A DNA stretch of 35,413 nucleotides from positions 1 to 35,413 of the IMG/VR virus record IMGVR_UViG_3300020219_000008, one strand, 5' to 3'. The position numbers were made by a program, and so were the translations under genes. The stretch comes from a virus. Below are positions 4,812 through 33,586 of the stretch, in pieces (the stretch's first letter is position 1; the number at the start of each line of letters is the position of its first letter). A model generated the notes under the pieces. That model made no database searches. It was not told the DNA's origin and saw only the letters and a list, made by a program, of their open reading frames with translations.

Positions 4812-4829
4812 GGAAACGGTTTTAAGACT

Positions 4830-5782: not shown

Positions 5783-5785
5783 AAA

Positions 5786-6868: not shown

Positions 6869-6876
6869 TTTAATCG

Positions 6877-6901: not shown

Positions 6902-6926
6902 TCAAATATTCAACAGGAGAATTAAA

Positions 6927-7706: not shown

Positions 7707-7718
7707 TTAAATTTACTG

Positions 7719-7756
7719 GTTTCGGGTGGGGGTTTCGCCTCTGCCCGAAACTTTAT
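7719..7756 (+). terminator. hairpin with short T-rich tail
   Basis: GTTTCGGG (7719-7726) pairs exactly with CCCGAAAC (7744-7751), followed by TTTAT. The 17-base loop can fold further with G-U pairs. It lies in the 73-base gap before the next gene. A weak or partial terminator, or an mRNA 3'-end stabiliser, would fit a place where expression drops after the capsid genes. Confidence 0.5.
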
Positions 7757-7779
7757 TAAAGCAACAAAGGATAAGCACC

Positions 7780-8064: not shown

Positions 8065-8067
8065 ATT

Positions 8068-8754: not shown

Positions 8755-8765
8755 GAGGTGATTAG

Positions 8766-10094: not shown

Positions 10095-10129
10095 AATGAT
10101 TATTACTTTTTCTAGGAGGATACAATTTT

Positions 10130-10921: not shown

Positions 10922-11772
10922 TTAAACTAGTTGATATTTTGGCGAGCGGAATTAAAGACGCCGTCGGTGAGCCGCTTGCTGGCGGGACCGTTACAAGCTA
11001 TTTAGCCGGGACCACGACGCTTGAAACTCTTTACGAAGATTTCGAGCTGGATGATCCGCATTCAAATCCGTTGACTCTTGACGCCGCTGGCATGGCAGTC
11101 GCCTACTCAACAGAACGTGTGAAGCTAGTCTTTCATAACAGTAGCGGAACCTTAGTCAGGACGATAAATAACGTCGGAACAAATAACAGCGATGTTCCAT
11201 CAAGCACCGAACAAGTTATTCCTGCTGGATTTATTGGGCCCTACGCCGGAAATTCTGTTCCGTTAGGATGGTTAGCTTGCGATGGAAGCGAAGTAAGTAG
11301 AACAATCTATGCGAATCTCTTTGCTAATATTGGAACTTTGTGGGGCGCTGGAAACGGTGCAACAACGTTTACCCTTCCAGATTTTCGAGGTCGCACTGCA
11401 ATTGGAGATGGAACTGGAACTGGTCTTACTGCGCGAACCCTTGGTGCTAACCTCGGGGCTGAAGAAGTAACCTTAACCGGGGCACAGTCCGGTATAGCCG
11501 CGCACAATCACACGCAAAACGCGCACAATCATTTAACTGTAAAGATTGGGACTGGAAATCAAGATCCAATTACAAACACCGTGTCCCTCGCTTACAAAGT
11601 CACCGGCGTAGGCGATGCAGATTATACACTTATCGGAAGAAATGAAACGGCTGACACTGGGCTAAGCTCATCGACAACGGCCACAAACAACGCGGTGTCG
11701 GACACAACAGCACTTTCAGCGCACACAAACATGCAACCAAGCGCAGTAGCGAAATTTATTATCAAAACATAA
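10918..11772 (+). CDS. tail collar domain protein
   Basis: The 284-residue protein has an N-terminal beta domain of about 100 residues (VDILASGIKDAVGEPLAGG). A classic phage tail collar domain follows: IPAGFIGPYAGNSVPLGWLA, CDGSEVSR, FTLPDFRGRTAIGDG. The C-terminal part carries two HNH triplets (AHNHTQNAHNH), which in short-fibre tips of T4 gp12 type coordinate metal. It starts at ATG 10918 in an ATGA overlap. It is likely a receptor-binding fibre or tip protein. Confidence 0.8.
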   Translation: MIKLVDILASGIKDAVGEPLAGGTVTSYLAGTTTLETLYEDFELDDPHSNPLTLDAAGMAVAYSTERVKLVFHNSSGTLVRTINNVGTNNSDVPSSTEQVIPAGFIGPYAGNSVPLGWLACDGSEVSRTIYANLFANIGTLWGAGNGATTFTLPDFRGRTAIGDGTGTGLTARTLGANLGAEEVTLTGAQSGIAAHNHTQNAHNHLTVKIGTGNQDPITNTVSLAYKVTGVGDADYTLIGRNETADTGLSSSTTATNNAVSDTTALSAHTNMQPSAVAKFIIKT

Positions 11773-11773
11773 A

Positions 11774-13174: not shown

Positions 13175-13557
13175 TGGCAATAAGATTACCACAACCTCCG
13201 AGGGATCTAACAAATTTAATCGAGCTAGGGCAATGGCTTGAAAATATTTGGAACCATGTTCGAGGAACTGTTGTAGTTACAGGAGATGCTGTGGCGACAA
13301 TTGGGAGTGGCGAGACTTATCACGGGATAACCGCACTTTCCGCGACTAGAACAATAACGATGGCGCCGGCGGCTTCGTATCAAGACGGCGATGAAATTAT
13401 TATCCAAGATGAGTCTGGCGCAGCGGGTACTTATACGGTCACCATTTCTAGAAGCGGGAGCGACACTATAAACGGTGGGGCATCGGTCACGATTACTTCT
13501 AATTATGGCCGCAGAAGAATAATTAAACGCGGTGCGGGGAAATTTTACTCAGCATGA
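13174..13557 (+). CDS. small tail-fibre domain protein
   Basis: The 127-residue protein has a short helical N-terminus (LIELGQWLENIWNHV) that may attach to the tail. A beta domain with DESGAAGTYTVTISRSGSDT follows and ends RRIIKRGAGKFYSA. The same module (DESGSAGTNNITVSRAGSDT) occurs in the fibre-type protein at 32338-33087 on the other strand, so both draw on one fibre-domain family. It overlaps both neighbours (TAATG upstream, ATGA downstream). It is probably a minor tail or fibre subunit. Confidence 0.6.
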   Translation: MAIRLPQPPRDLTNLIELGQWLENIWNHVRGTVVVTGDAVATIGSGETYHGITALSATRTITMAPAASYQDGDEIIIQDESGAAGTYTVTISRSGSDTINGGASVTITSNYGRRRIIKRGAGKFYSA

Positions 13558-14138
13558 AAATACTCGTTTTTGACAATTTTCTACCTGATGCAATTGAGGA
13601 GCGGGAGCGTGCGCTTAAAGCTGATTTTGGCACACACGATGTTTATGGAACAACCAATCATAGCGTTGGTTACATCCAAAACGAACAGCACACCGAATTA
13701 TTTAAACAGTCTTTAGGAGTTACAACAGGCGAAGCGACTGCTTACTATCGTCGGTATCTAGAAGGCGAACCACAAAAAGATTTTATTCATAATGATGGAA
13801 ACGTAGCGTCCTATATCGGTATTTTGTGGCTGACGGATCCAAAGCACTGCACGGGCGGTCTCGCTTTTTGGAGACACAAACTTTATGGATGGGAAATGTG
13901 GCCATCAAAAGAAGATGCCGGGCACTTTGGGTTAGATTTGGATGACACACTTAGAGCGCGTCTAAAAGAGGACGGCGAAAATGAACAAAGATGGCACATG
14001 ACCGAGTACGTGCCGATGGAATTTAACCGTCTCGTGGTTTTTTTAGGCTCTCGTTACCACTCTAGATATCCTAAAAACGTAGATGCACCGAACATGGAGC
14101 AAAGCAGACTTGTAAAAGCGTTTTGTTATACGCCGTGA
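13554..14138 (+). CDS. 2-oxoglutarate/Fe(II)-dependent dioxygenase-like protein
   Basis: The 194-residue protein carries the residues expected of the double-stranded beta-helix oxygenases: an HxD iron pair (FIHND, H79 and D81), a distal histidine in LGSRYHSRYP (H169), and an arginine (R185) in SRLVKAF to bind 2-oxoglutarate. ASYIGILWLTDP supplies the core strands. This resembles the prolyl-4-hydroxylase/DUF6445 group. It lies inside the tail module, coupled by ATGA overlaps to a fibre gene and to a GNAT-like gene. It may hydroxylate a virion or host protein; substrate unknown. Confidence 0.7.
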   Translation: MKILVFDNFLPDAIEERERALKADFGTHDVYGTTNHSVGYIQNEQHTELFKQSLGVTTGEATAYYRRYLEGEPQKDFIHNDGNVASYIGILWLTDPKHCTGGLAFWRHKLYGWEMWPSKEDAGHFGLDLDDTLRARLKEDGENEQRWHMTEYVPMEFNRLVVFLGSRYHSRYPKNVDAPNMEQSRLVKAFCYTP

Positions 14139-14542
14139 GTAAAGAGATCTTAAACGCACGGCTGTTTGAGTTTGGAAAAGATTACCCGGAAGTATGCGAA
14201 TGGTGGCGAGCTAGAAATCATCGCTATGTAGAGCAAGATTTGCTTTCGAAAGTGGGAATTATGATTGAAGGGGAAACAAATAAATATTGCGTCGGATGGC
14301 TCTATATGGGCGATTCCGCATTCGCAAAGTTTACATGGGTTGTGAGTAACCCGAATTCCCCTCTTATGCGCCGAAAAGACGCGATAGCACTTTTGGCACA
14401 GAAAGCTTTAGGTACGGCTAAAGAATTGGGCGCTAGAAGCGTGGTCGCATCATTTTCGAATGAGAACTTGTCTAAGATTTTTAATGAGAACGGTTTTGAC
14501 ACAGTTGAAAAAAATGTAACTAACTTATTTGCGAGGATATAA
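14135..14542 (+). CDS. GNAT-like acetyltransferase (putative)
   Basis: The 135-residue protein starts at GTG 14135, overlapping the oxygenase stop (GTGA). The second half resembles the acetyl-CoA-binding part of a GNAT domain: a helix starting at ALLAQKALGTAKELGARSV, a strand SVVASFS, then NENLSKIFNENGFDTVEKNV, the usual 'N-x-x-s-x-x-l-y-x-k-x-G-F' ending. The P-loop-like R/Q-x-x-G/A motif is not clear. Similar small acetyltransferases appear next to phage tail genes. It could modify a tail or host protein together with the neighbouring oxygenase. Confidence 0.5.
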   Translation: MSKEILNARLFEFGKDYPEVCEWWRARNHRYVEQDLLSKVGIMIEGETNKYCVGWLYMGDSAFAKFTWVVSNPNSPLMRRKDAIALLAQKALGTAKELGARSVVASFSNENLSKIFNENGFDTVEKNVTNLFARI

Positions 14543-14544
14543 AT

Positions 14545-15297
14545 ATGGGATCACTACCAGCGGCGATTTTTCAATCAAAAGCCACAACTAACGCGGCTAA
14601 CACTGCTGCGGACGCACAGAGAGACGCCCTACGTTCAAATGAAACACTTACTAGAGAGGGGATTGCCTCACAGAAAGAACAGTCTGAAAAAGCGTTGGCC
14701 TATCTAGAGAGGCAGAGCGCTCAATCCAGGACTGACCTAGAGCCGTTTAGAAATGCTCAGCTGGGCGCTCTGTCTCAGCTTGACGCATTATCGCAGCAAG
14801 GAAATCCATTTGAAGCCCAGCAAAGACAAGTGGCGACGCAGCAGATTCAGCAGCAGCTTGCAGCTCAGGGCCTTTTGAGATCAAAAAGCCAAGTCGATTT
14901 ACTTTCAAATTTAGAGCTTGGAATCAATGAACAAAATTACAATCGGAGAACCAATCTTTTGTCTATGCTCGCGGGTACTGGCGGGGCACAACAAAATTCT
15001 AGCCAAGCTATTGGAGTTGGACAAACGGGCGCGGGTGTTTATACGGGACTTGGCGCACAATTAGGAAGCTCATTCGGCAATCTTGCAGCACAACAAATGG
15101 CAGGAATTGGGAACGTAGGACAAATAATCGGCAATGGCCAGATGCAGTCAGCTAATCAATTAGCGGCTGGTGTAACTGGTACGATATCGAACCTCGGAAG
15201 CATGTTCATGGGTTATCAACAAAATAAAGCAGCTAAGCAGAATAATGACAGGCAATATGAGCTAATGTCTAAAGCTCTCAATAGGGAGAAATACTAA
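14545..15297 (+). CDS. internal ejection protein 1 (P22 gp7-like position)
   Basis: The 250-residue protein is rich in Gln, Ala, Ser and Gly. It is strongly helical in the first 110 residues (AADAQRDALRSNETLTREGI) and has a glycine-rich, mildly hydrophobic second half (GVYTGLGAQLGSSFGNLAAQ), a profile common in podovirus internal proteins that leave the virion and cross the envelope with the DNA. It is the first of three consecutive genes in the order of P22 gp7, gp20 and gp16, with TAATG coupling to the second. P22 gp7 is 229 aa. Assignment rests on composition and order. Confidence 0.65.
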   Translation: MGSLPAAIFQSKATTNAANTAADAQRDALRSNETLTREGIASQKEQSEKALAYLERQSAQSRTDLEPFRNAQLGALSQLDALSQQGNPFEAQQRQVATQQIQQQLAAQGLLRSKSQVDLLSNLELGINEQNYNRRTNLLSMLAGTGGAQQNSSQAIGVGQTGAGVYTGLGAQLGSSFGNLAAQQMAGIGNVGQIIGNGQMQSANQLAAGVTGTISNLGSMFMGYQQNKAAKQNNDRQYELMSKALNREKY

Positions 15298-16364
15298 TGG
15301 GCGACAATAAATACGTCATAGACTACGGCCCTGGTCCACTTGAGCAAGCACAAAAGATGCTTGGTCTTGTTGATTTGGTTAATCGCGTTAACGCTGCTCC
15401 TGTTGAGCAAGCTATTAAAGACAACGAGCTTAAGCTTAAGCAAAACGACGTTACCCAAATTGAAACTAAAAATGCTCTGGAATTTCAAAAATTAAAATCT
15501 GCTGTTTACGATGAAGAAAGAAAGTCCGCAGAATTTCAGAACAGCGCCCTTCTCAAAATAAGAGAGGGCTTTCAGCAGGATTTCCAAATGGGAAGCATCA
15601 TGCTTCAGCAGGCGATTCCTGGCGCGTTTGCAATTAAGAAAGAGAATGGCTCTGTAGCGATTTCCATGCCTGGACAATCTCCCATCAGTATTAATCCAGG
15701 CGATATTACAGATCCGAAAGAAATAGCCTCGCAAACACAGGATAGGGTTGTTAAGTGGGGTAAGGCATCTGAACGATACATAGAAATTTTTAATTCTGGA
15801 AACGGGATCAAAGCACAGCTTGGCCTTGCAACTGCCGCTGGCGATATCGCGGCAATTTATTTAAGAGCTAAGCAGCTTGATCCGGGCGGCAGAGTTACCG
15901 AGGGAGACTACAATTCCGTTATTAACTCTCCGAACGTCAGCCAGCAGCTCAAAAACATGCTGACAAGAGCTGTAAATCAAGATGGGCCTATGTTTGGCGA
16001 TTTAAGCTCTCCAAGTAGGAAAGCATTTTTAGAATCCTCAAAAGTATTGGTTGATCAAGAAAAGTCTGCTTTCTTGCCGCACGCAAAGTTCTTTTTGGAA
16101 GGACAGATTTTGGGCGACAAACTAGATCCACAAAAAATATTTTCTCCGGCCGGAGACATTACGCTTGAGTCACTCGGATACAATAAAGAAAAAAGACAGG
16201 TTGTGGCGCCCGAACCCGGGGCAGTTGTGGGGCCGAAAGACCGCGCTCCGCAAGCTGGGCAACAAGCTTCGCCAGAAGCTGCAACACCAACACCAAAAAT
16301 AAACCTTAAAGCGAGAACCGACGCTTGGTTAAAGAATACAATGGCTAGCGGAGGAACAAAATAA
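15297..16364 (+). CDS. internal ejection protein 2 (P22 gp20-like position)
   Basis: The 355-residue protein is mostly helical. It has a charged coiled coil near residues 35-85 (AIKDNELKLKQNDVTQIETK), a mixed middle, and a Pro/Ala/Gln-rich linker at about 305-335 before a basic C-terminus. No enzyme motif is visible. It lies between the other two putative ejection proteins, with TAATG overlaps at both ends, so the three are probably made in fixed ratio. P22 gp20 is 471 aa. It may form part of the periplasmic DNA conduit. Confidence 0.6.
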   Translation: MGDNKYVIDYGPGPLEQAQKMLGLVDLVNRVNAAPVEQAIKDNELKLKQNDVTQIETKNALEFQKLKSAVYDEERKSAEFQNSALLKIREGFQQDFQMGSIMLQQAIPGAFAIKKENGSVAISMPGQSPISINPGDITDPKEIASQTQDRVVKWGKASERYIEIFNSGNGIKAQLGLATAAGDIAAIYLRAKQLDPGGRVTEGDYNSVINSPNVSQQLKNMLTRAVNQDGPMFGDLSSPSRKAFLESSKVLVDQEKSAFLPHAKFFLEGQILGDKLDPQKIFSPAGDITLESLGYNKEKRQVVAPEPGAVVGPKDRAPQAGQQASPEAATPTPKINLKARTDAWLKNTMASGGTK

Positions 16365-18625
16365 TGCCCGAAGGACTAATTGATCTAACTCAAAGAGTTG
16401 CGGCTGCTTCTCCTAAGCCAGAACTAAAGGTTGCACCGCAAACAGTGCCCGCTCCAAAACGCGGCGATGATTTGATGGCATCTGCCTTAGCTCATCCCAA
16501 GGTAGACAGCCTTGATTCCTATGGTCTGAAACTTTTTCACGAAAGCCAGGACATGGTGCAAGCAAAAGCGGATGAAGATCCGGAATTTGCCAAACGCATT
16601 GACACACAATTCTCCCAATTTAAAGGCGGAGACCCTAAATACGCTGAAAAGATGATCGACGAGGCCGATGCGATAAAAATCGAAGCTTTAAAACAACAAA
16701 ACCCCGATTGGTTTGGTTATACAGGCGCCGCGAGAACAGGCTTTCTAAACTCAATTACTTTTGGTCAGCTTTCTAAAATTAAAGGAAAAGCAGGCGAGCT
16801 TATAGAGGGAACGCCCTACGAAGAATTTGTTTCAAGAGAATCCGAAAAAGTCCGCCTTCTACACAAGGCTTTTCCCGGCACAACACTGGCCGCGGAAGCT
16901 GCAACATTTTTAATCCCTGGAAGCCCCGTTAAAGCACTTTTCTCAAAGGGCGCTGCCATGGGACTAAAGGTCGCGGGTAATATTGCCCCTTCCTTAGCTC
17001 GTTTTGCTGCAAATCCAACGCTCCTTCAAAAAACTATTCGGGCCGCAGCGGAAGGTTTCGGCGGAGCTATGGCCGTAAGTGCTCCAAAGAATTTTGCTGG
17101 GACAGACTTTCAAGAGTTCTCTTTAGATAGAGGCGTTGGAAAATCATTGTCCGAGGGTGCAATGGTTGGTGCAGTAAGCGCACTGCTTCCTGTTGGCGCT
17201 TCTGGCGTTGGTGCGATTGCACGGGGTACTAAAGCAGCGGCGCAAAAAGTTAGCTCGGGCATGGGCTCTCTTACCGAGGCAATAACTGGCACGAGTAGCA
17301 AGGCGGTTAGGGCTTATAGAGCAAATCCTGAGTTAATTGAAAACGCGGCCGGATCTGAGTCTCAGGTTGGCGAAGACCTTTTAGATTTTTTGTGGAACCA
17401 GAAAAAATCAAGACTTCCAGAACATGACGCCGCTGATAAGCTTTTAGATAGCTTGCCCGAAGTAGATGTGTCGCGTGTAACGACATATTTAAGAAGCGTC
17501 AAACCTACAAAAAACCCAAGCAGCGATGCCGTAACTGCAAAACTTCATGCGTGGGCAGACCGTATCGAGGCTACTCTACCAAAAGCGGAAGAAATAATCG
17601 AAGGCACCTTGTCTAACTCCGGCGGGTTGCTTGGAGAAACGGGCGTCAAAAAAGTGCTAAAAAGTAAAATTTCCGCAAGGAACATGAGATTGCTCATCGA
17701 TGACCTGCAGGATGAGGCGGCTGACTCGTTTGGAAAGGAATCCGGCAAATATATAGGAGCAATTAAAATAGCGGCCAGGCGCGCGCGCATTGATTTACTT
17801 GAAGCGGCATCCAAAAATGGCGGTGACCCAGGCAAAAACTACATCGATTTGATGAATAAGGTCGCGGATAAGACGCGTGTTCTAAAATATATTGGTAAAC
17901 AGCTTGGCAGGTCTGAAGAAATACAAGCACAAAATGCCGAAAGATTCGTCGGCGGTATTTTCAATAAAAATAAAACCTACCAACAAAAAAGATTGGCCGA
18001 ACTCGATGGCAAGTTCGGCACTAATTTTCTAGAACTTGCTGAAAACGCAAGCTTTGCAAAACAACTCGGGCCACAAGGAAAGCCGCAATTCTTTCCATCC
18101 CAAACTACAGGGAGAACCCAATTAGGTACAACTGTCGGTGAGGCGGTGGGCGCAGTTGTTGGCGGCGTTATCGGGGCGTTTGCGGGCAATGCTCCGGGCG
18201 CGGTTGGGGGATTAGAGGTTGGCAGAAGACTCGGCAAAGCAGCAGGTACTGCGGCGAGTTCTCCTCGAATGCAGTCTATGGTTCTTGGCACGTCAGACAA
18301 AATTTCTGGATTTGCAAACTACATCTTCCAAAAACCAGAAGTGCTTTCAAGTCTAGCAGGAAAGGTTCTTAGGGTTCCGGGACAGCCGCCCGTAAGAGTG
18401 CCGGAGCAAGTAAAAGAACTTGCGAAAGAGCTTACAACCACACTTGAAAAAGACGGTCCTGTTTCGGCGGGCGGCACGCTGCGGATTATTGCCGACACTC
18501 CGTATTTTGTGGGACTAGTGCATTATTTTGAGATCGCTGACAGGCACGCATTAGGAAATGCGGCTACAAAAGCGGTCGCAGGGCAAAACTATTCTGACGA
18601 AATAGCAGTTCAACCAAAACAATAA
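16364..18625 (+). CDS. internal ejection protein 3 (P22 gp16-like position)
   Basis: The 753-residue protein is the longest in the genome. It has a charged helical N-terminal region, an amphipathic or hydrophobic segment at about 170-215, and a long helical middle. A glycine-zipper-like membrane segment lies near 590-630 (GEAVGAVVGGVIGAFAGNAP). Such zippers occur in proteins that insert into membranes, in keeping with a protein that opens the cytoplasmic membrane during DNA entry. No lytic transglycosylase motif is evident. P22 gp16 is 609 aa. It overlaps its upstream neighbour by TAATG. Confidence 0.65.
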   Translation: MPEGLIDLTQRVAAASPKPELKVAPQTVPAPKRGDDLMASALAHPKVDSLDSYGLKLFHESQDMVQAKADEDPEFAKRIDTQFSQFKGGDPKYAEKMIDEADAIKIEALKQQNPDWFGYTGAARTGFLNSITFGQLSKIKGKAGELIEGTPYEEFVSRESEKVRLLHKAFPGTTLAAEAATFLIPGSPVKALFSKGAAMGLKVAGNIAPSLARFAANPTLLQKTIRAAAEGFGGAMAVSAPKNFAGTDFQEFSLDRGVGKSLSEGAMVGAVSALLPVGASGVGAIARGTKAAAQKVSSGMGSLTEAITGTSSKAVRAYRANPELIENAAGSESQVGEDLLDFLWNQKKSRLPEHDAADKLLDSLPEVDVSRVTTYLRSVKPTKNPSSDAVTAKLHAWADRIEATLPKAEEIIEGTLSNSGGLLGETGVKKVLKSKISARNMRLLIDDLQDEAADSFGKESGKYIGAIKIAARRARIDLLEAASKNGGDPGKNYIDLMNKVADKTRVLKYIGKQLGRSEEIQAQNAERFVGGIFNKNKTYQQKRLAELDGKFGTNFLELAENASFAKQLGPQGKPQFFPSQTTGRTQLGTTVGEAVGAVVGGVIGAFAGNAPGAVGGLEVGRRLGKAAGTAASSPRMQSMVLGTSDKISGFANYIFQKPEVLSSLAGKVLRVPGQPPVRVPEQVKELAKELTTTLEKDGPVSAGGTLRIIADTPYFVGLVHYFEIADRHALGNAATKAVAGQNYSDEIAVQPKQ

Positions 18626-25330: not shown

Positions 25331-25511
25331 GTTAATCGCCAAAGAGGTTGAAAGAGCGAACGGCAAAAAGAAACTTACTCTATCTGACATAGTACAAGAC
25401 ACAGTGAACGTTGTGTCGGATCTACTGAAAGAAGATTTTTACAGCGAAAAACCAGCAACACTTTACGCGGCCTTTTTAAGGCATGGAAAAACTAAAGACA
25501 AACACAACTAA
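25314..25511 (+). CDS. hypothetical helical protein (65 aa)
   Basis: This small protein starts at ATG 25314, inside the end of the zinc-ribbon gene, after a GAGGGAAAG site. It is mostly helical and charged (MKHLIRLIAKEVERANGKKK, then LSDIVQDTVNVVSDLLKEDF). There is no signal peptide or membrane segment. It is the last gene before two exported proteins, so it may end the early block. I do not recognise it. Confidence 0.55.
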   Translation: MKHLIRLIAKEVERANGKKKLTLSDIVQDTVNVVSDLLKEDFYSEKPATLYAAFLRHGKTKDKHN

Positions 25512-25518
25512 GGAAACT

Positions 25519-25881
25519 ATGAAAAAACTAATAGCAATATTACCACTAATGTTCTTCGCAGCGTGTACGACACTGTGCCCGCTCGGCAAGAGTACTGCGG
25601 CTAGTGTTTCTGTCGCCATGGGAGGCATGCTGCAATGTAAAAGAATTGACCTCATTCAAAGTGACCTAGAGGCAAAGCTAAAATCAACTGGCGTGTGCAA
25701 AGAAGCGGACGGCAAGATGCGAGGACCTGTAGGAGATATCGCATGCCCAATTGTTGTGCCTATTGCAATTGGTATGGCGAGTAAGCTTGTGCCTACAAAG
25801 TATGGATGCGAACTGACAGAGCTTAAAGATAATGCGGCGAGTATTTTGACCAAAGCTTGTCAGGGTGTAGTGCCGCTTTAA
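25519..25881 (+). CDS. lipoprotein (120 aa)
   Basis: The protein opens with a lipoprotein signal: MKKLIAILPLMFFAAC, in which FAAC is the lipobox and C16 would be lipidated. The mature part has five or six further cysteines (LCPLGKS, LQCK, VCKE, IACP, GCEL, ACQG) and a mildly hydrophobic segment VVPIAIGMASKLV. It should sit in the periplasm or outer membrane. AAGGAA precedes ATG 25519. Phage lipoproteins outside the lysis block are often superinfection-exclusion factors or adhesins, but nothing here identifies which. Confidence 0.65.
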   Translation: MKKLIAILPLMFFAACTTLCPLGKSTAASVSVAMGGMLQCKRIDLIQSDLEAKLKSTGVCKEADGKMRGPVGDIACPIVVPIAIGMASKLVPTKYGCELTELKDNAASILTKACQGVVPL

Positions 25882-25910: not shown

Positions 25911-26582
25911 ATGAAACATTTACTAATTATTATCGCGCTAATGTCAGCGCACTTAATAGCAGACGAAGAACCAGTCATGATGCATGGCGAGCCCGAAATA
26001 TCTCAGCGCACTCACCGCATCGCCAATGACTTCGAAGTTGACTTAGCGTCAGGCAAGCTAAAACAAAAAACGCACAAAGCAACTGCTGCGATTATCCGCT
26101 TGGCGGCCTATAAGTTGAAACGTGTGGGCAAGAAAGCGGAGGCCAATCAACTTTTAAAAGAGTGGAAGGCACAAGAAGTATATTTTCTTGGTCGAGGCAT
26201 TGGTGATCATAAGGCGCTAAGCAAGTGGCTCTCTGATAAATACGACATGCTTGAATTTACGTTAGGCAAAGAGATTTGCTATTCCTTAAGGCTGTCTGAT
26301 TTAAAAACAATTAACTACGGCATTCCTGTAGTTCTTTCGTGTGTCGATAACGTGGATTTGGAGGAGTATGGGAACCATTTTATTTATGACGATGAATATC
26401 GCTTGCGTGGGTTAGGTCCTGTCGCGGGTTATTGGACATCGTTCTTTGCTTGTGTTGGTGGCACTTGGGGATCGGGCTTCCTTTTTTGCGCGCCCATTGC
26501 ATCGGGAGTCGAGTACTTAGCTAAGAACTACGTATGCCCGAAGCTAAACGAACCACTTTGGAATAGGGCTTGTAAAAACTAA
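25911..26582 (+). CDS. exported protein of unknown function (223 aa)
   Basis: A signal peptide (MKHLLIIIALMSAHLIA) precedes a charged helical domain and then a Cys-containing, Gly/aromatic-rich C-terminal part. Its hydrophobic stretch VAGYWTSFFACVGGTWGSGF may be a membrane segment or a pore-like hairpin. AAAGGA precedes ATG 25911. The reading frame continues past the TAA stop for 14 codons in the Ser-Arg-Gly-Trp repeat style of the next genes. Together with the lipoprotein before it, it forms a two-gene exported set. Function unknown. Confidence 0.6.
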   Translation: MKHLLIIIALMSAHLIADEEPVMMHGEPEISQRTHRIANDFEVDLASGKLKQKTHKATAAIIRLAAYKLKRVGKKAEANQLLKEWKAQEVYFLGRGIGDHKALSKWLSDKYDMLEFTLGKEICYSLRLSDLKTINYGIPVVLSCVDNVDLEEYGNHFIYDDEYRLRGLGPVAGYWTSFFACVGGTWGSGFLFCAPIASGVEYLAKNYVCPKLNEPLWNRACKN

Positions 26583-26627
26583 AAGTTTAGCCGTAGCGGG
26601 AGCGGGATTTGGAGTCGGAGCAAATGA
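26583..26627 (+). pseudogene. orphan tail of a Ser-X repeat ORF
   Basis: Directly after the 223-residue gene stop, and in the same frame, 14 codons read KFSRSGSGIWSRSK and end in TGA. This is the same ending as the repeat ORF at 26624-26821. It has no start codon of its own, so it is a truncated relic or a readthrough extension. Its TGA overlaps the ATG of the next ORF (ATGA), and its GGAG serves as ribosome-binding site. Confidence 0.5.
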
Positions 26628-26821
26628 AAATAATTCAATATCGAAAACCGAAATGGGGCAGGGGCGGGATTAGGAGCCGAAGCGTGAGCAGTAGCGGAAG
26701 AAGAAGTTGGAGTTTGAGCGGTAGCGGGATTTGGAGCGTGAGTTGGAGCAGGAGCAGGAGCGGGAGCGGGAGCGGGAGCTGGATTTGGAGCGTGAGTTGG
26801 AGCAGGAGCAGGAGCAAATGA
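26624..26821 (+). CDS. Ser-X repeat protein 1 (MKIIQYRKPK family, 65 aa)
   Basis: The ORF encodes the leader MKIIQYRKPKWGRGG, followed by about 45 residues in which every second residue is Ser and the others are Arg, Gly, Trp, Val or Leu, ending SRSRSK. The DNA is a degenerate hexamer, AGY followed by an NGG or NTG codon. The protein is very basic and presumably disordered; it could bind nucleic acid, as Arg-Ser domains do. GGAG of the upstream repeat is 4 bases before the ATG. Two sister leaders follow at 26829 and 26933. Coding on this strand is supported by the shared leader and the ATGA chaining, but not proven. Confidence 0.55.
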   Translation: MKIIQYRKPKWGRGGIRSRSVSSSGRRSWSLSGSGIWSVSWSRSRSGSGSGSWIWSVSWSRSRSK

Positions 26822-26936: not shown

Positions 26937-27034
26937 AAATAACACAAAATCGAAAACCGAAGCGGGAAAAAAAACGCAGTAGCAAGTGTTTTTGGTGCAG
27001 GTATCAGGCGAAGGAGGGGGATGTCGGATCATGA
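26933..27034 (+). CDS. leader-bearing ORF 3 with CxxC, repeat nearly lost (33 aa)
   Basis: The frame opens MKITQNRKPKREKK, a diverged copy of the family leader, but the Ser-X array is reduced to RSSK. It is followed by CFWC and a short tail. The stop lies 14 bases inside the sigma-like gene, so translating ribosomes would pass over that gene's start. It may work as a coupling leader for the sigma-like protein. A CxxC in so short a peptide could bind metal, or may be accidental. Confidence 0.4.
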   Translation: MKITQNRKPKREKKRSSKCFWCRYQAKEGDVGS

Positions 27035-27569
27035 AAAATTGCTCAGCCGATATCGATACATTGCTCGAGGGCTTGGATTTCAGGGAGACTGTGAAGACAT
27101 CGCTCAAGAGGCTTATTTGGGAGGCCTCAAAAACCCACACTGGAAACAAACCGCAAGGCAAAGAGTTATCGAGGCTATTCGAGGTATTTATGGACGAACT
27201 GTTGGAGGCATCTGCCGTGATCCATTGCTCAATCGATTGGTCGACGAATATGAGGAAGAAATACAACTTTCTTCTACGGGATCAAGCGAGGAGGCTAGAA
27301 TCAATGGGTATGATTTTAAACGAGCTGTTGAAGTCTTACAGGGAGAAGAAAGAGTAATTTTCTTTTTAATATATGTATGGGGTTTCAAAGAAAAAGAGGT
27401 TGGCGATTGCTTCGGAGTTAGCGAGTCGCGGATTAGCCAAAGGCTCAAAAAAATACAAAAGAATATACAAAACAAAATACGCGGCGGCGCAGAGACAAGA
27501 GAACCAGGCGTACAGGGAATCGAGGAGGCGACAGTGGAGCGGGAGCTGGAGCCGGTTGTGGATCAATAG
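27021..27569 (+). CDS. sigma-70-like factor 1
   Basis: The 182-residue protein has the two parts of a minimal sigma factor: a region-2-like helix with CEDIAQEAYLGGLK near residue 24, and a region-4 helix-turn-helix at about 107-145 (FKEKEVGDCFGVSESRISQR). The linker between them is short, as in ECF factors. It probably redirects host RNA polymerase to phage late promoters. The start is ATG 27021, after AAGGAGG. Its last 30 residues run into Ser-X-type hexamer DNA read in another frame (TVERELEPVVDQ). A paralogue follows at 28259. Confidence 0.75.
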   Translation: MSDHEKLLSRYRYIARGLGFQGDCEDIAQEAYLGGLKNPHWKQTARQRVIEAIRGIYGRTVGGICRDPLLNRLVDEYEEEIQLSSTGSSEEARINGYDFKRAVEVLQGEERVIFFLIYVWGFKEKEVGDCFGVSESRISQRLKKIQKNIQNKIRGGAETREPGVQGIEEATVERELEPVVDQ

Positions 27570-27657
27570 CGGGTGCAGTAGCGGAAGAAGAAGTTGGAGC
27601 GTGAGTTGGAGCGGTGGCGGAATGCGAAGTTGGAGTCGTAGCGTGAGCGAATGAAAT
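27529..27657 (+). repeat. hexamer repeat tract at the 3' end of sigma-like gene 1
   Basis: AGY-NGG hexamers run from inside the sigma-like gene to a TGA at about 27654. In the +1 frame relative to that gene, they read WSGSWSRLW, then SWSVSWSGGG and SWSRSVSE. That frame is open back to ATG 27373 (93 residues, basic, with no ribosome-binding site). It could be reached by +1 frameshifting or be a leftover repeat ORF whose leader was replaced by the sigma gene. No MKIIQYRKPK leader is present in this copy. Confidence 0.5.
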
Positions 27658-27684
27658 TTTAAATAACAAAAAGGAAAAGAACAA

Positions 27685-27942
27685 ATGCAAATGATAGTAA
27701 CGAGCGAAGAAAAACAAGGTTTAACAAGTTTATTAGGGCAACAGGTGACGCTGATGTGCGCTAATTATTTTTATACAGGAAAATTAATTGGCGTCGATAA
27801 AACATGTGTGAAGCTTGAAGATCCGGCGATTGTCTACGAAACCGGAGAATGGAATCTGAAGTCATACAAAGATGAACAAAAATTAAATTGCAAATTTTGG
27901 TATGTGAGACTTTCAGCGATTGAGAGTTTCGGATGCAAATAA
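27685..27942 (+). CDS. small beta-barrel protein, Sm/Hfq-like appearance (85 aa)
   Basis: The protein reads as a short N-terminal helix (SEEKQGLTSLLGQQ) and then five strands in Sm-like order: VTLMCANYFYTGKLIGVD, TCVKLEDPAIVYETG, FWYVRLSAIESFG. An Sm or SH3-like barrel would fit; the canonical Hfq YKH motif is absent. AAAAGGAAAAG precedes ATG 27685. Its end overlaps the leader of the next Ser-X ORF by 10 bases. If it is an RNA-binding barrel, the basic repeat protein coupled to it may be its partner. That is inference. Confidence 0.55.
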   Translation: MQMIVTSEEKQGLTSLLGQQVTLMCANYFYTGKLIGVDKTCVKLEDPAIVYETGEWNLKSYKDEQKLNCKFWYVRLSAIESFGCK

Positions 27943-28142
27943 TTCAATATCGAAAACCGAAGCGGGCCGGTAGGAAGAGCATGAGCGGTGTCGGTGGCAT
28001 GATCTGTAGCTGGTGTTGGAGTTTGGGCCGTAGCGGGAGCAGGAGTTGGAGCCGGAGCCGTAGTCGGAGTTTGAGCGGGAGTTGGAGCGGGAGCAGGAGC
28101 GGGAGCAGGAGCAGGAGCTGGAGCAGGAGCTGGAGTAAATAG
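27933..28142 (+). CDS. Ser-X repeat protein 4 (69 aa)
   Basis: This is the longest intact member. The leader MQIIQYRKPKRAGRKSMSG is followed by about 45 residues of alternating Ser with Gly, Arg, Trp or Leu, ending SWSRSWSK. It starts inside the Sm-like gene. Part of it (28009-28051) is identical to the second repeat ORF. The strict hexamer phase keeps the frame when units are gained or lost, so length can change without inactivating it. Highly basic, probably disordered. Confidence 0.55.
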   Translation: MQIIQYRKPKRAGRKSMSGVGGMICSWCWSLGRSGSRSWSRSRSRSLSGSWSGSRSGSRSRSWSRSWSK

Positions 28143-28258
28143 TTTATAGGCGCTTCTTGGTACTTGGTGCGCAGGTACGGGGCTAATTGTTCGGCCCAAA
28201 AGCACGGAGGGAAAGCCTAAAAATCCCTCAAGCGTTATTAATTAAAAAGGAGACGACC

Positions 28259-28735
28259 ATTGAACGTATCAAAAAGTATAAAGCCATTGCTAAAAAACTT
28301 GGATTTAAGCGTGACGCAGAGGACATTGCTAGTGAAGCGTATGCGGATTTTCTTAAACACCCAGATAGGAAACAAACGGACGGCCAACGCGTTATCGATG
28401 CAGTTCGGGTCCTTTTTGGTCGGGGAGATAAGACGAATAGAAAAATCCCGAGTAGGTCTTTCTCGATCGAAGAAGAAGGCTATATCGAGAAGGGGAAAAG
28501 CAACCCCTTCGGTCAGGGCGAAGCACTCGATATCGACAAAAAGCTTGCATCACTAGACGCTGACGAGCGGGTGATGTTCTTGCTGCGTCACCTTTGGGGA
28601 TTTAACATTCATGAGGTTGGCTATTGTTTTGGAATGAGCGGTTCTAGAATATCTCAAAGAATGACAGAGATAGAGAAAAAGGTTGTTATCGATCATCCTA
28701 CGGCGGGTCGACGTGTGATAAAAACGACACATTAG
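28259..28735 (+). CDS. sigma-70-like factor 2 (probable ATT start)
   Basis: The 158-residue protein is a paralogue of the one at 27021. AIAKKLGFKRDAEDIASEAY matches IARGLGFQGDCEDIAQEAY, and the region-4 helix-turn-helix FNIHEVGYCFGMSGSRISQR matches its counterpart. The linker differs (KIPSRSFSIEEEG). No ATG, GTG or TTG lies near the ribosome-binding site AGGAG (28248-28252). The only in-frame codon at correct spacing is ATT 28259, and the homology begins just there. A TTG at 28187 would add 24 unrelated residues. Two sigma-like proteins may serve two late promoter classes. Confidence 0.7.
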   Translation: MERIKKYKAIAKKLGFKRDAEDIASEAYADFLKHPDRKQTDGQRVIDAVRVLFGRGDKTNRKIPSRSFSIEEEGYIEKGKSNPFGQGEALDIDKKLASLDADERVMFLLRHLWGFNIHEVGYCFGMSGSRISQRMTEIEKKVVIDHPTAGRRVIKTTH

Positions 28736-28993: not shown

Positions 28994-29803
28994 CTAGTAA
29001 ACAGAATATTTAGCTCTTAGATACTCTTCAATAAGAAGCGTGTCCGCATCGGAATTAAGAACATTATAAAAAATGATTTCTGCAATATCTGCCTGAACAA
29101 ACTTATTACTATAGTTATTTGCACCGATTATAACGGGTGTAGTTGCTGTAGTAGTATTCCCTGATGCCGTCGATGATACGGCAGCGCCGTTAAGTCTTCC
29201 ATACAGAGTGCCGCCGCCATGCTTCTGAGTTGCAAGGTATTTGGTAGTTAAAGAAACGCCAGTAGTAAAATTGTCCACCGTGCCACCGTCATAATTTCCA
29301 TACCAAAGCGTATTAGTTCCCGCAGTAGAACCTAAGCCCAATCCCGTATTAACGTCGGTTGCTTGAATCCAAATAGCGCCGGTTGAGTAATAAGTTCCCT
29401 CTTCAGAGGGCCCGTCTGCTCTTAATAAAAAAACAGAGTAACTGGAATAGGCAGAAGCCGAGATGATATTAGTATCGAAATCAGTATCCCCTGCCTTGCC
29501 CATATACTGGTCGGTACCGTTAAATCTTAAAACAGGTTTTCCGTTTAAAATATTTGTTTTATAAGTCGGCCCCGTACTTGAAGTGGATGTGTATCCATTC
29601 CCGCTACTATCTGTCCATGAGGTTATCGTGTCATTGTCGGAGGCAACCAGTGAATCTGCTTTGTACCAAGCCGTTAGTCCAGTTACATCGGCTGGGGAAA
29701 AGGCGGCACCGGACTTTATCGGAGTTAAACGCCTAAGCCCGCTTGAAAAACAAAAAGAGCTAAGAACAGAAAAGAATATAAAAAAAGCACAAACTATTTT
29801 CAT
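28994..29803 (-). CDS. exported LamG/concanavalin-like domain protein
   Basis: The 269-residue protein has a Sec signal (MKIVCAFFIFFSVLSSFCFS) followed by a jelly-roll of the LamG/ConA type: GLTAWYKADSL, SWTDSSGNGYTSTSS, GKPVLRFNGTDQYMG, and near the end FVQADIAEIIFYN and IEEYLRAKYSVY. Such domains bind carbohydrate and are common in phage fibres, but there they do not carry signal peptides. This product should be exported to the periplasm or cell surface. It is the last large gene of the leftward cassette. Confidence 0.7.
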   Translation of the reverse strand: MKIVCAFFIFFSVLSSFCFSSGLRRLTPIKSGAAFSPADVTGLTAWYKADSLVASDNDTITSWTDSSGNGYTSTSSTGPTYKTNILNGKPVLRFNGTDQYMGKAGDTDFDTNIISASAYSSYSVFLLRADGPSEEGTYYSTGAIWIQATDVNTGLGLGSTAGTNTLWYGNYDGGTVDNFTTGVSLTTKYLATQKHGGGTLYGRLNGAAVSSTASGNTTTATTPVIIGANNYSNKFVQADIAEIIFYNVLNSDADTLLIEEYLRAKYSVY

Positions 29804-29818
29804 ACATCTCCAAAGGAT

Positions 29819-30625
29819 TTACGGGGTATAGGCTTGCGTGAAAGAGCCATAATAATTAGTGCCATCCCAATACAAGTTTATTAAGTCCATTTTACTTGCC
29901 GTTGCTGTAATGGTGGGAGCAGTGCCGCCGGCCCACTTAACAGTCGCGGGCCAGGTAACTGTAAAGCTGCCAGCTCCTGTTAAAATTCTAATTAGGTATG
30001 ATCCACCCGTAACAGGATTAGTCAAAGTGTAGGTGACATTACCAGTGAGCGTACTTTTTCTAACTGCGCACGAACTTAAATCTAAAGTGTCGGCAGTTGA
30101 GCTATTACCGTCGTCGGTTTCACAAGGTTCTAAATGATAATTTCCGAAAGTGACTTGGGTTGTAAACGCAGGGGAAGCGCTCGGTGCTTTTGTATTTATT
30201 TGAGTTTGAATGGCAGAGGTGACGCCTGTCACATAGCCAAGCTCGGTTGGGGTTACAGCACTTGAAGCAAGTTGTTTAGATCCGTCTAGATAAGGAATGG
30301 TCGTTGCTGTAAGTGAGCTCAGAATCGGTGCAGTAGAAAGAGTTTTTGCTCCTGCAATCGTTTGCGATCCAGTAGTAACAAGCCCGCGTGCTGTACCTGA
30401 TGCCGATGGTAAATTGAATTTATGATCACCCGCCGCATCGTCAACCACCACAAAGTCAGTGCCGGTTGTTCCTACCGTAAGAGTTTGAGCGGCCGTAGCA
30501 TCAGAGTTTATTTGGGTTACGTTGCCGGACCCGCCCCCGGACGCACCGCCGCTAGAAGTGGAGCTTGCGAAAGATGAAACCTGAAGAGCAAAACACAAAA
30601 GATAAACAAGAGAGAACTTTGTCAT
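29819..30625 (-). CDS. exported fibre-like protein
   Basis: A signal peptide (MTKFSLVYLLCFALQVSSFA) leads into a Gly/Ser linker. Tail-fibre-style repeats follow: GSQTIAGAKTLSTAPILSS, TPTELGYVTGVTSAIQTQIN, APSASPAFTTQVTF. The C-terminal beta domain is of the kind seen at fibre tips (TVTWPATVKWAGG, NLYWDGTNYYGSF). I start it at ATG 30625 (268 aa) because AAGGAA lies just upstream. ATG 30685, preceded by GGGAGAAAG, would add 20 residues before the signal peptide. Export of a fibre-like chain is odd. Confidence 0.65.
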   Translation of the reverse strand: MTKFSLVYLLCFALQVSSFASSTSSGGASGGGSGNVTQINSDATAAQTLTVGTTGTDFVVVDDAAGDHKFNLPSASGTARGLVTTGSQTIAGAKTLSTAPILSSLTATTIPYLDGSKQLASSAVTPTELGYVTGVTSAIQTQINTKAPSASPAFTTQVTFGNYHLEPCETDDGNSSTADTLDLSSCAVRKSTLTGNVTYTLTNPVTGGSYLIRILTGAGSFTVTWPATVKWAGGTAPTITATASKMDLINLYWDGTNYYGSFTQAYTP

Positions 30626-30695
30626 ATTTTTCCTTACCAGTATACCGTCTTTGACAGCGCCGTCTTTAATTAAAACTATTTTCATACTTTCTCCC

Positions 30696-30803
30696 TTATT
30701 CTTCGAACCAAAAAACTGCAAATCCATTATGCTTAATTCCCGCTGGAACCACAAAAGTACCGCTTGAAAAAAATCTTTTATATGTACGTCTTGGATGACT
30801 CAT
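30696..30803 (-). CDS. miniature relative of Gly-rich proteins (35 aa)
   Basis: The ORF MSHPRRTYKRFFSSGTFVVP is followed by AGIKHNGFAVFWFEE. Its first half matches the starts of the two larger Gly-rich proteins (MSYPRRTYKIFAASGTFTAP and MGYARHTRKVFAASGTFTAP). Its ending matches theirs in style (WWWE, WWYE), but the whole Gly-rich middle is gone. ATG 30803 overlaps the upstream stop (ATGA), as in its relatives. It is either a deletion remnant or a deliberate short form with only the flanking strands. Confidence 0.5.
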   Translation of the reverse strand: MSHPRRTYKRFFSSGTFVVPAGIKHNGFAVFWFEE

Positions 30804-31276
30804 TCCCACCACCAAATTAAAACTAACCCTGGCCCGCCAGAGCCGCCGTTACCGCCTGCGCCGCCGTCGCCGCCACGCCTTCCATTTGCGGCAATTCTAG
30901 CGCCGCCGCCGCCGCCGCCGCCGCCAGGCGCGCCGCCTACACCGCCGATACCAAATCCTACGGCGTTACTACCTGCCGCTCCAGATGTTGCGGTAACCGC
31001 ATCTATGGCAACATCACCCGCGCCGCCAACACCGCCTGCGGCCCCAGCTTTTCCATTTTGTAAATCAAACGCGGTCGCCGTTTGAAGATCCTGCGCGACA
31101 TCAGAAACTATTGCTGAGGAATTAGTACCGCTGCTACTTCCCCCGCCACCACCACCACCGCCAGAGGCGCCTGCGCCTGCGCCAACGAGAATCAAATTTA
31201 TAAAAGTTACTCCGGCAGGCGCCGTGAATGTGCCGCTAGCTGCAAAGATTTTGTATGTGCGTCTTGGATAGCTCAT
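30800..31276 (-). CDS. Gly-rich fibre-tip-like protein, short form (158 aa)
   Basis: After the entry motif FAASGTFTAPAGVTFINLIL comes a tract of Gly and Ala, with eight Gly in a row, ending GPGLVLIWWWE. There is no signal peptide. ATG 31276 overlaps the upstream stop (ATGA). Bases 31207-31248, coding the entry motif, are identical to 32268-32309 in the longer relative, so one arose from the other recently. The fold is probably the Gly-rich loop domain of receptor-binding fibre tips. Confidence 0.6.
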   Translation of the reverse strand: MSYPRRTYKIFAASGTFTAPAGVTFINLILVGAGAGASGGGGGGGGSSSGTNSSAIVSDVAQDLQTATAFDLQNGKAGAAGGVGGAGDVAIDAVTATSGAAGSNAVGFGIGGVGGAPGGGGGGGGARIAANGRRGGDGGAGGNGGSGGPGLVLIWWWE

Positions 31277-32337
31277 TCGTACCACCAAAGTATTAAGGCA
31301 CCGGATGCACCGGCACTGCCTGCACCACCCGCGCCGCCGTTAGCACCGTCTGTGCCAGCGCCGCCCGTATTTCCATAACCCCCACCGCCGCCAGCGCCGC
31401 CAGCGCCGCCGCCACCAGGTGATCCATAACCGCCAGCGCCAGGACCGCCGGAAGCGCCGCCGTCTGCTCCAACAGTCGGTATTGTTGGCGCGCTCGGATC
31501 ACCGCCGTTACCGCCCTCACCTGAATCTACGCCTGGGGTTGATGAAATTAAAACGCCTGTATCGAGCGTGAGAATAACCGTGGTTACACTTGCAGAGGAG
31601 GCACCGCCGGAAGCGCCGCCGCCGCCGCCGCCGCCTGTACCAGAGGAAGAAAAAACTGTACCGGGTCCAAGCGCGCCACCCGCGCTAGCGCCAAAAATTA
31701 AACCCACCGTCGAAGAATCTAGTCCTGCCTCCCCCGTACCGCCCGTACCTGCGCCATAACCGGCTACGTTTCCGCCTTGTCCGCCAGTCGCACCGGCAGG
31801 AGCGGTATTACTACCGCCTGCCCCACCCCCGCCGCCAGCGCCGCCTTCCGTTAGATCACCTATTAGACCGCCGCTCCCGCTAGCGCCGCCCACGCCATCA
31901 ATAATATCGCCGCCGTCTCCTCCGTCGACATCGAAATAAATATCACCGGAAATTGAAGTAGTCTCGCCGTTATCTCCGGACGCGCCTTGCGTGCCCGCAT
32001 CGCCCTGATTGGCAACACCGCCTGCGCCGCCTACGCTACCCGCGCCGCCCGCGCCGCCAGCGCCGACTGTGATGGAGTACGCATACCCCGGAGATAAAAT
32101 TACATCTGTTAAAAAAAGAATTCTCATTCCCCCTGGATTACCAGCGCCGCCAGAGCCGCCGCCGCCGCCCCCGCCTTCGCCATTATCGCTACCAGCGCCG
32201 CCGCCAGCGCCAGGACCGCCGGAAGCGCCGCCGCCACCGCCGCCGATTAATAGAATGTCATATTTTTTTACTCCGGCAGGCGCCGTGAATGTGCCGCTAG
32301 CTGCAAAGACTTTTCTTGTGTGTCTTGCATATCCCAT
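31273..32337 (-). CDS. Gly-rich fibre-tip-like protein, long form (354 aa)
   Basis: The protein has the same entry motif (FAASGTFTAPAGVKKYDILL), then about 310 residues that are nearly half glycine in repeated GGAGG/GGSGG blocks interrupted by short strands (ILSPGYAYSITVGAGG). It ends SGALILWWYE. No signal peptide is present. The coding DNA is very GC-rich (GCCGCC on the plus strand), unlike its surroundings. It follows the fibre-like gene 32338-33087 without a gap. With its 158- and 35-residue relatives it forms a size series. Confidence 0.6.
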   Translation of the reverse strand: MGYARHTRKVFAASGTFTAPAGVKKYDILLIGGGGGGASGGPGAGGGAGSDNGEGGGGGGGSGGAGNPGGMRILFLTDVILSPGYAYSITVGAGGAGGAGSVGGAGGVANQGDAGTQGASGDNGETTSISGDIYFDVDGGDGGDIIDGVGGASGSGGLIGDLTEGGAGGGGGAGGSNTAPAGATGGQGGNVAGYGAGTGGTGEAGLDSSTVGLIFGASAGGALGPGTVFSSSGTGGGGGGGASGGASSASVTTVILTLDTGVLISSTPGVDSGEGGNGGDPSAPTIPTVGADGGASGGPGAGGYGSPGGGGAGGAGGGGGYGNTGGAGTDGANGGAGGAGSAGASGALILWWYE

Positions 32338-33087
32338 TTAAATGAGAAACCAATTTGTGCCGTTCGCCCAGAATACCCACGCGCCCCAATCGGTTTGGAA
32401 TATTTTAGCTGCAGCAACGCCCTCGATTTGTTCAGAAGCAAATCTATTTACTGTAATATTATTCGTGTTGCATAATCCGGTTGCATCTTTAATTGTTAAT
32501 GTGGTTCCAGATACGGGGGACGGGAGAGTAAGAGTTCTAGCCACCGATGTGTTTACTAGAAAAACATTATTTGCGAATAAGTTTATATTAGAAGAAACAC
32601 TAGTACTTGTTTGCAAGCTTTGATTTGGATAATAGCTTATTACGAAAAATTTAGAAGTTCCATCACAGGTCAAAAGAATCGAGCCATAATTTTGATTAAT
32701 TACAAAAGTCGTAGCACCATTAATTGTGTCAGAGCCCGCGCGCGAAACGGTAATATTATTCGTCCCAGCTGATCCCGATTCGTCTTCAATCCAAAATCTT
32801 TGCCCGGGCCCGCAAGTACTGGCCGCTGGGAGAGTCACCGTTCGCGCCGCAGCGGTGCTAGTAATCCCCATGTATCCGCTAGCGTTAGTGAGGGTAACGT
32901 TTCCAGCTGAAGTGACTCGTAAAATTGAAAAACCTGCTAATGTTGAAACGCCTGTAAACGTAGGGGAGGCTTTAGGAGCTTTTAAATTTAATTCGTCCTG
33001 AAGATCGGTTTGAGCAGAAAGCGTACCAGTAATACTTCCCCAAGTTCCGCCGCCGCCGCCGCCGCCGCTTTGACTAACACTACTCAT
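32338..33087 (-). CDS. fibre-like beta protein with two repeated modules
   Basis: The 249-residue protein begins with a Gly linker and a common fibre element (GTLSAQTDLQDELNLKAPKA). It then carries two related beta modules: AARTVTLPAAST with FWIEDESGSAGTNNITVSRA, and VARTLTLPSPVS with LTIKDATGLCNTNNITVNRF. The first module also resembles the small tail protein at 13174-13557. ATG 33087 overlaps the stop of a 34-residue ORF (ATGA). No signal peptide belongs to this frame. It may be a fibre or part of an exported complex. Confidence 0.6.
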   Translation of the reverse strand: MSSVSQSGGGGGGGTWGSITGTLSAQTDLQDELNLKAPKASPTFTGVSTLAGFSILRVTSAGNVTLTNASGYMGITSTAAARTVTLPAASTCGPGQRFWIEDESGSAGTNNITVSRAGSDTINGATTFVINQNYGSILLTCDGTSKFFVISYYPNQSLQTSTSVSSNINLFANNVFLVNTSVARTLTLPSPVSGTTLTIKDATGLCNTNNITVNRFASEQIEGVAAAKIFQTDWGAWVFWANGTNWFLI

Positions 33088-33188
33088 CGGTGTGCCCAAG
33101 TGGTTAGAGTAATTTCACCGCTTGTAGCTGTACTTCCTGAGTCGGATCTAACGTAACACCGAAGATAAACAACAGAGAACTTTCTCAT
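33084..33188 (-). CDS. short ORF, degraded signal-peptide copy (34 aa)
   Basis: The ORF starts MRKFSVVYLRCYVRSDSG, and its DNA (33164-33202) matches the signal-peptide start of the exported fibre-like gene (30601-30639) with only 2 differences in 39 bases. Changed residues (R, C, R in the core) break the hydrophobic stretch, so it would not export well. It ends ATGA-coupled to the next gene and may now serve only as a translated leader. It is a product of segment duplication. Confidence 0.45.
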   Translation of the reverse strand: MRKFSVVYLRCYVRSDSGSTATSGEITLTTWAHR

Positions 33189-33196
33189 ATTTTTCC

Positions 33197-33586
33197 TTAC
33201 CACACAGAGACGGTTACGATGCCCGAACTAATCGCACTACCATCGGATTTGATATAAATCCGAGAAGAAACTTTTATACCGTCTCTGACAGCGCCAGTAA
33301 AACCGGAGCCCCCATTTGGCGGGACATACATTTCAACTAAAGTTGGGTTGTTTGACGAATCACCACTAGAAAAATTAACTGCAATTCTTGTATTCGAATG
33401 ATTTACGATCTCAAGGTGTGTAGCTCCCGTGACACCCGTTGAGATTAGGCTTGATGCGTTCGTTTTATCAAACGATGTGGGGATATTAGTTGCAGATGAA
33501 TCGATTTTCTTTGCATAAAAGTCGACAGCGAAAAGTGGAAACTGAAACAAACCAAGGAGCAGGAAGAAAATATTTGTCTTTTTCAT
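33197..33586 (-). CDS. exported small beta protein (129 aa)
   Basis: The signal peptide MKKTNIFFLLLGLFQFPLFA is followed by a 109-residue beta domain (GATHLEIVNHSNTRIAVNFS, LVEMYVPPNGGSGF, IYIKSDGSAISSGIVTVSVW). It reads like a minor fibre or decoration fold. It is the first gene of the leftward cassette, with AAGG before its ATG. A fragment coding GAVRDGI recurs, as GAVKDGI, upstream of the exported fibre-like gene at about 30641-30670, another sign of duplication. Confidence 0.6.
   Translation of the reverse strand: MKKTNIFFLLLGLFQFPLFAVDFYAKKIDSSATNIPTSFDKTNASSLISTGVTGATHLEIVNHSNTRIAVNFSSGDSSNNPTLVEMYVPPNGGSGFTGAVRDGIKVSSRIYIKSDGSAISSGIVTVSVW

Follow-up and report, generated by a model that had tools for sequence, protein, structure and literature searches.

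The leftward cassette and its predicted signal peptides

The DNA considered here is the IMG/VR virus record IMGVR_UViG_3300020219_000008, which belongs to a bacterial virus from an environmental sample and was analysed over its full 35,413 bases (the window). It contains a cassette of eight minus-strand open reading frames (ORFs), running leftward from 33586 to 28994 and spaced by short gaps or ATGA-type overlaps. Three of these ORFs, 33197, 29819 and 28994 (each gene is named by its lower coordinate), encode predicted Sec signal peptides at the head of small, partly fibre-like proteins.

The first gene of the leftward run (33197–33586) encodes a 129-amino-acid (aa) protein composed of the signal peptide MKKTNIFFLLLGLFQFPLFA and a domain of ~109 aa, with no match to a Pfam or PHROG family. 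The product of 29819 (29819–30625) is a 268-aa tail-fibre-like protein (phrog_9017 tail fiber, 2.2e-10). Its preferred start is the ATG at 30625, which is preceded by TAAGGAAAAAT and yields the signal peptide MTKFSLVYLLCFALQVSSFA; the alternative start at 30754 is not preferred. Gene 28994 (28994–29803) encodes a 269-aa LamG/lectin-like protein that begins with the signal peptide MKIVCAFFIFFSVLSSFCFS... (cleavage point uncertain) and matches a virion structural protein family (phrog_10356, 3.7e-22), its Laminin_G_3 match being sub-threshold (E 0.04, cut-off not reached). The other five ORFs lack signal peptides. They comprise 32338 (32338–33087), a 249-aa fibre/baseplate-like protein (Pfam T4_gp9_10_N, 8.9e-7, over the cut-off; phrog_20556, 9.4e-15) that is 42% identical over 91 aa to a protein of the virion block (13174–13557); 31273 (31273–32337), a 354-aa glycine-rich protein (Gly_rich_2, 0.0011, below the cut-off); its 158-aa glycine-rich paralogue 30800 (30800–31276), which has an ATGA overlap with the preceding gene; a 34-aa remnant ORF (33084–33188) in which a 29819-type signal-peptide start leads straight into a copy of the C-terminus of 33197; and a 35-aa ORF (30696–30803) that has the start of the glycine-rich genes and lacks the glycine-rich part.

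Two repeats connect these genes. Repeat D6, 48 nucleotides (nt) long, spans the ribosome site of 29819 and the beginning of its signal peptide; at 33155–33202 a second copy, 92% identical, heads the remnant ORF. Repeat D5 is a 71-nt start present in three copies, which head ORFs 31273, 30800 and 30696. Since both repeats lie at gene starts, the cassette probably grew by duplication and recombination there. Predicted promoters (10, shuffle mean 7.3) and terminators (4, shuffle mean 6.8) show no clear excess over shuffles, so we claim no transcription signal. AlphaFold models of mature 33197 (pLDDT 36.5) and mature 28994 (pLDDT 33.3) were too poor for a structure search.

Sec signal peptides were called with our own rule-based predictor, not SignalP; it is positive on 83 of 8400 whole-protein shuffles (about 1%) and gave at least one evident false positive, at locus L167. 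Five of the 44 listed ORFs in the window are positive: the three cassette genes, 25483 and 25911. Signal peptides are thus predicted on three of the eight cassette ORFs and on none of the 18 rightward genes from 1139 to 18625, among them the fibre-like 8766, 10130, 10873 and 13174. The predictor found no lipobox in the cassette proteins and one in 25483. The two further predicted exported products lie outside the cassette, at 25483–25881 (lipoprotein-like) and 25911–26582 (no PHROG match and no Pfam match above its cut-off). The original prediction, made from the sequence alone, had placed signal peptides on three leftward ORFs with fibre-like or LamG-like domains. The predictor agrees at all three positions, and the PHROG matches of 29819 and 28994 bear out the fibre-like content, with LamG on 28994 itself below threshold and 33197 outside any matched family.

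Related fibres and their distribution

Three related loci, L004, L005 and L006, have core proteins 65–69% identical to those of the window, and in each of them a single signal-peptide fibre gene, pointing leftward, occupies the corresponding position upstream of the packaging genes. This fibre starts at a GTG behind GGAGG, a good Shine-Dalgarno site, and encodes VNKLILILSLCSMAVFA; comparisons among the three give ratios of nonsynonymous to synonymous substitution rates (dN/dS) of 0.31 to 0.71. The virion blocks of L004 and L006 also contain a 139-aa signal-peptide protein that is 29% identical to 33197 (over its length in the case of L004:8599–9018; shuffle test 2/1000). A candidate third member of this small family, L180:209–631 from a myovirus, was not significant (83/1000 shuffles), and we claim no homology for it.

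In an unrelated podovirus, L083, a signal-peptide fibre (8422–9906; 50% identical to 29819 over 285 aa) is followed directly by a signal-peptide LamG protein (9922–10689), the same order as in the window. The two LamG proteins are about 27–32% identical, and that of L083 matches Laminin_G_3 over the cut-off (1.8e-9). The L083 pair stands after holin and M15-type endolysin-like genes, labels that are our own reading of the sequences, and the virion tail fibre of the same phage (L088:3043–5421; phrog_4492, 2.5e-21) has no signal peptide, its N-terminus being judged by eye. Leftward near the pair, at L083:12120–12893, is a papain-family cysteine protease (Peptidase_C1, 1.7e-50) with a signal-peptide-like N-terminus.

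A third setting is G006 (locus L091), whose sheath (phrog_205) and baseplate J (phrog_6) genes mark it as a myovirus. Its virion fibre (phrog_20878) lacks a signal peptide and is followed by a small signal-peptide protein, and at the opposite contig end is a signal-peptide fibre that matches the L004 fibre at 95% identity over its C-terminal 243 aa and differs from it in the N-terminal half. The accessory genes that adjoin the cassette in the window (27021–28735, plus strand) include the sigma70 region 4-like 27021 and 28187 and the 85-aa 27685; 27021 and 27685 are 95–99% identical among the window, G006 and L005. A near-identical fibre C-terminus and near-identical neighbour genes thus occur in podovirus kin and in a myovirus and, judged from these alignments, the module is exchanged and recombined between tailed phages with different virions. 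The phages that exchange it presumably share a host.

The cassette had also been described as lying opposite to the virion genes. This is the case in the window, where the virion genes all run rightward from ~1.1 to 18.6 kb; in several relatives the equivalents are co-directional with the virion genes, so orientation does not define the module. The accompanying premise, that such proteins stand apart from virion genes, fails as a general rule, since the virion block of some relatives contains fibres with signal peptides.

For a wider sample, the L004 fibre served as query to retrieve 80 loci from IMG/VR. Among the matches listed outside that fibre's own kin, mostly the middle part of the L004 fibre is matched, and the signal peptide lies outside the match. 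A first count gave signal peptides on 18/77 fibre homologues and on 59/1046 other ORFs of at least 100 aa, the L167 false positive included. After deduplication and exclusion of L090 and L091 as the query's own kin, the strict count is 15/71 fibre homologues versus 36/974 other ORFs (odds ratio 7.0, p = 3e-7), with 15 of 78 loci represented. When loci were chosen instead through the 85-aa neighbour gene, a signal peptide was present on a protein of fibre-like composition (assigned by rule) in 4 of 20 new loci, one of which, L186 (115 aa), is doubtful.

Among public phage records, 1 of the 17 fibre homologues opened, a subset of the matching records listed, has a signal peptide; MW202701 was left out because no gene is annotated on its matching strand, and S-8S56 because its gene start falls outside the stretch. 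The exception, MW202444, is a complete circular record of an uncultured phage with integrase, tail and capsid genes, in which the signal-peptide fibre (36356–40117), homologous to 29819, lies between tail and lysis genes. Compared with the 15/71 in IMG/VR, the public proportion gives a Fisher p of 0.18, and a difference between cultured and uncultured phages is not established. We recognised no report of signal-peptide tail fibres as a class in the literature searched, the scope of which excluded preprints and most subscription papers.

With respect to the rest of the window, PHROG matches indicate a P22-like podovirus: terminase large subunit (phrog_979), portal (phrog_156, 5.5e-74), major head protein (phrog_334, 2.6e-74) and head closure Hc3 (phrog_578, 1.9e-44). 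The stretch of the virion block with fibre, collar and head-closure-like genes (8766–14138, plus strand) has a signal peptide in none of them and serves as a control within the genome. Replication-type genes (YqaJ, DnaB-like) and two sigma-70 region 4 proteins follow the virion block. Ten window proteins were tested for integrase and none was found, the N-terminal SAM-like match of 21297 being sub-threshold and not taken as one; no repressor was found among the window genes tested. Short repeated ORFs lie at 26609–26821, 27373–27654 and 27933–28142, of which 26609 and 27933 share an IIQYRKPK start; all three continue as long XS dipeptide runs (WS, GS, RS) from tandem 6/12/18-nt repeats, and similar ORFs occur in G006. 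A near-identical locus, L003, spans the end and start of the window. The D12 methyltransferase gene at 204–1094 is intact in the window, and L003:1818–2199 shows two short frames instead.

Probable export and its possible role

Because signal peptides recur on diverged homologues and are enriched on fibre homologues, Sec export of the three cassette products is very likely, suggesting that in some phages fibre proteins leave the infected cell instead of going only into particles. Recurrence and enrichment thereby support the export proposed in the original prediction; the surface display, receptor masking and superinfection exclusion that it attached to export are what we infer beyond them.

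Our preferred reading, which we hold tentatively, is that the cassette is an accessory operon of exported fibre/lectin-like proteins, exchanged between phages, that occupy host-surface ligands. The host Sec pathway would export at least three cassette products, which may then reach the outer surface or be released in bulk at lysis. Their lectin-like and fibre-like domains make glycans or proteins on the host surface the obvious candidate ligands. The most likely benefit of occupying adsorption ligands would be that the infected cell is spared superinfection and that released progeny are not lost on debris; having no evident integrase, the phage would gain most from exclusion or from sparing its progeny. 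The non-exported members, 32338 and the glycine-rich proteins, may remain on the virion as fibre tips. We count in favour of an accessory operon that L083 has the same signal-peptide fibre–LamG pair beside a separate virion fibre without a signal peptide. Further points for this reading are the lack of signal peptides in the 18 virion-block genes, the signal-peptide fibres of L004–L006 with their dN/dS values, that of the myovirus G006, which also has a virion fibre lacking one, the enrichment on fibre homologues, and the independent record MW202444.

Several observations weigh against this reading. We found no sequence similarity of the exported fibre or LamG protein to the phage's own virion fibres, so a receptor shared with these is not supported, and no membrane anchor, outer-membrane export device or translocation signal in the cassette proteins. 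The signal-peptide fibre of L160 lies between the major head protein (phrog_283) and Hc3 (phrog_578), that of L162 directly follows Hc3, and L185:1–5686 has four consecutive fibre-like signal-peptide genes adjoining terminase genes, all of which would also suit a virion role. In loci chosen by terminase (L003–L082), 2 of 28 ORFs of fibre-like composition have a signal peptide, both being the same small protein, so the trait is not general; the composition filter missed the GTG-started fibre of L004–L006. As the cassette and the phage's own virion fibres have no receptor-binding domain in common, the sequence evidence does not separate exclusion, adhesin and post-export attachment readings.

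The placements in L160, L162 and L185 point to the exported fibres being virion parts, secreted to the periplasm or medium and joining particles during or after lysis, or exported for folding or disulphides. The match of 28994 to a PHROG labelled virion structural protein would fit as well. We consider this unlikely rather than implausible: virion fibre genes that lack signal peptides are present separately in the window, L083 and G006, the window cassette has its own direction and is itself not conserved in close relatives, and assembly of tailed-phage fibres outside the cytoplasm is not known as an established process. Alternatively, the cassette could be a host-type adhesin operon carried as phage cargo, whose proteins serve attachment of the host to prey, particles or other cells, as in the MAT system of Bdellovibrio. 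According to the part of the source available here (PMC10769870), MAT proteins resemble phage fibres, bear a signal peptide and are exposed on the predator cell, and the mosaic N- and C-terminal halves of the L004 and L091 fibres resemble MAT tip swapping. Such an origin seems quite unlikely. There is no integrase or repressor among the window genes tested, so a long-term benefit to the host is doubtful. Two scans of contigs from 84,980 species genomes, the first with the terminase alignment A1 and the second with the fibre alignment A2, each using only two short patterns, gave 45 and 118 pattern matches and no confirmed relative, and a plasmid search for relatives gave none. No bacterial counterpart turned up in these scans for the acquired host surface genes that the original prediction also considered. 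PDB sequence searches with 28994 and with A2 returned nothing useful and no MAT chain among the matches. The S74 family is absent from the Pfam matches of the six cassette proteins, though these may be of the NS74 type. The idea of a Bdellovibrio-like predator as host came from a general resemblance and was rejected, as no analysis supports it.

Two further explanations would deny the cassette an exported function. The remnant ORFs (33084–33188 and 30696–30803) and repeats D5 and D6 could mark decaying junk, a hot spot where duplicated fibre fragments recombine without serving any selected function, which we regard as improbable: all main cassette ORFs are intact and tightly coupled, and dN/dS of the relatives' fibres is below 1. 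It is more improbable still that the signal peptides are over-called, reflecting hydrophobic N-termini without export or wrong start codons. The home-made predictor has the false-positive rate given above, including L167, but many diverged homologues show the classic n-h-c pattern with AxA-like sites, the Shine-Dalgarno sites are good, and fibre homologues are enriched over other ORFs.

Wider significance and known systems

The usual view is that tailed phages make and use their fibres inside the cytoplasm. If fibres with export signals do form a recurring class, phages would also be delivering receptor-binding proteins to the infected cell's envelope or its medium. More broadly, and with considerable doubt, it is possible that, next to their virion fibres, many uncultivated tailed phages with several types of virion maintain a second, Sec-exported fibre set, a shared, fast-recombining pool of secreted receptor binders acting from the surface or lysate through exclusion, decoy, adhesion or late particle attachment. 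In that case, both export and virion assembly would shape how fibres evolve. The question matters for superinfection exclusion, for how phage-like bacterial adhesins such as MAT fibres arose, and for annotation, in which such genes are now labelled simply as tail fibres.

With virion tail fibres of tailed phages (phrog_9017, phrog_16122, T4 gp9/gp10 N) the cassette has sequence domains in common, and 29819, 28994 and 32338 match phage virion profiles by PHROG. A place in the virion operon is found in some relatives but not in the window, where the cassette runs leftward and apart from 1139–18625. The closest bacterial parallel is in the Bdellovibrio MAT fibres, which, as described in the available part of PMC10769870, likewise are phage-fibre-like proteins that carry a signal peptide, have mosaic tips and presumably act at the surface; the N-terminal signal peptide is found on cassette proteins by the rule-based call. 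According to the same source, MATs are chromosomal in the predator, about 600–1150 aa long, with a conserved ~130-aa beta-rich domain directly after the signal peptide and, in 13 of 21, a C-terminal S74 chaperone/protease, whereas the signal-peptide genes of the cassette are phage-borne and encode 129–269 aa. T5 Llp is a phage-encoded exported protein and a known case of benefit from sparing progeny (PMC9586334, in part), and the cassette proteins would similarly keep phages from adsorbing to the infected cell and to debris. Whereas Llp, a small outer-membrane lipoprotein, acts on FhuA, the cassette proteins have no lipobox and are fibre/lectin-like. Porphyromonas gingivalis phage genes of unknown function with signal peptides are alike in their adaptation to host Sec export; in the portion of PMC10367356 at hand these are not described as fibres, whereas the cassette includes tail-fibre-like proteins in a recombining module. 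Proteins of diversity-generating retroelements (DGR) differ in this respect, at least within the accessible text of PMC6199706: those of phages lack signal peptides, and surface-displayed bacterial ones have them. Phage-encoded exported proteins and signal-peptide fibres are thus known kinds, and the cassette is a variant of these within a wider pattern, which is directly testable and deserves a systematic count.

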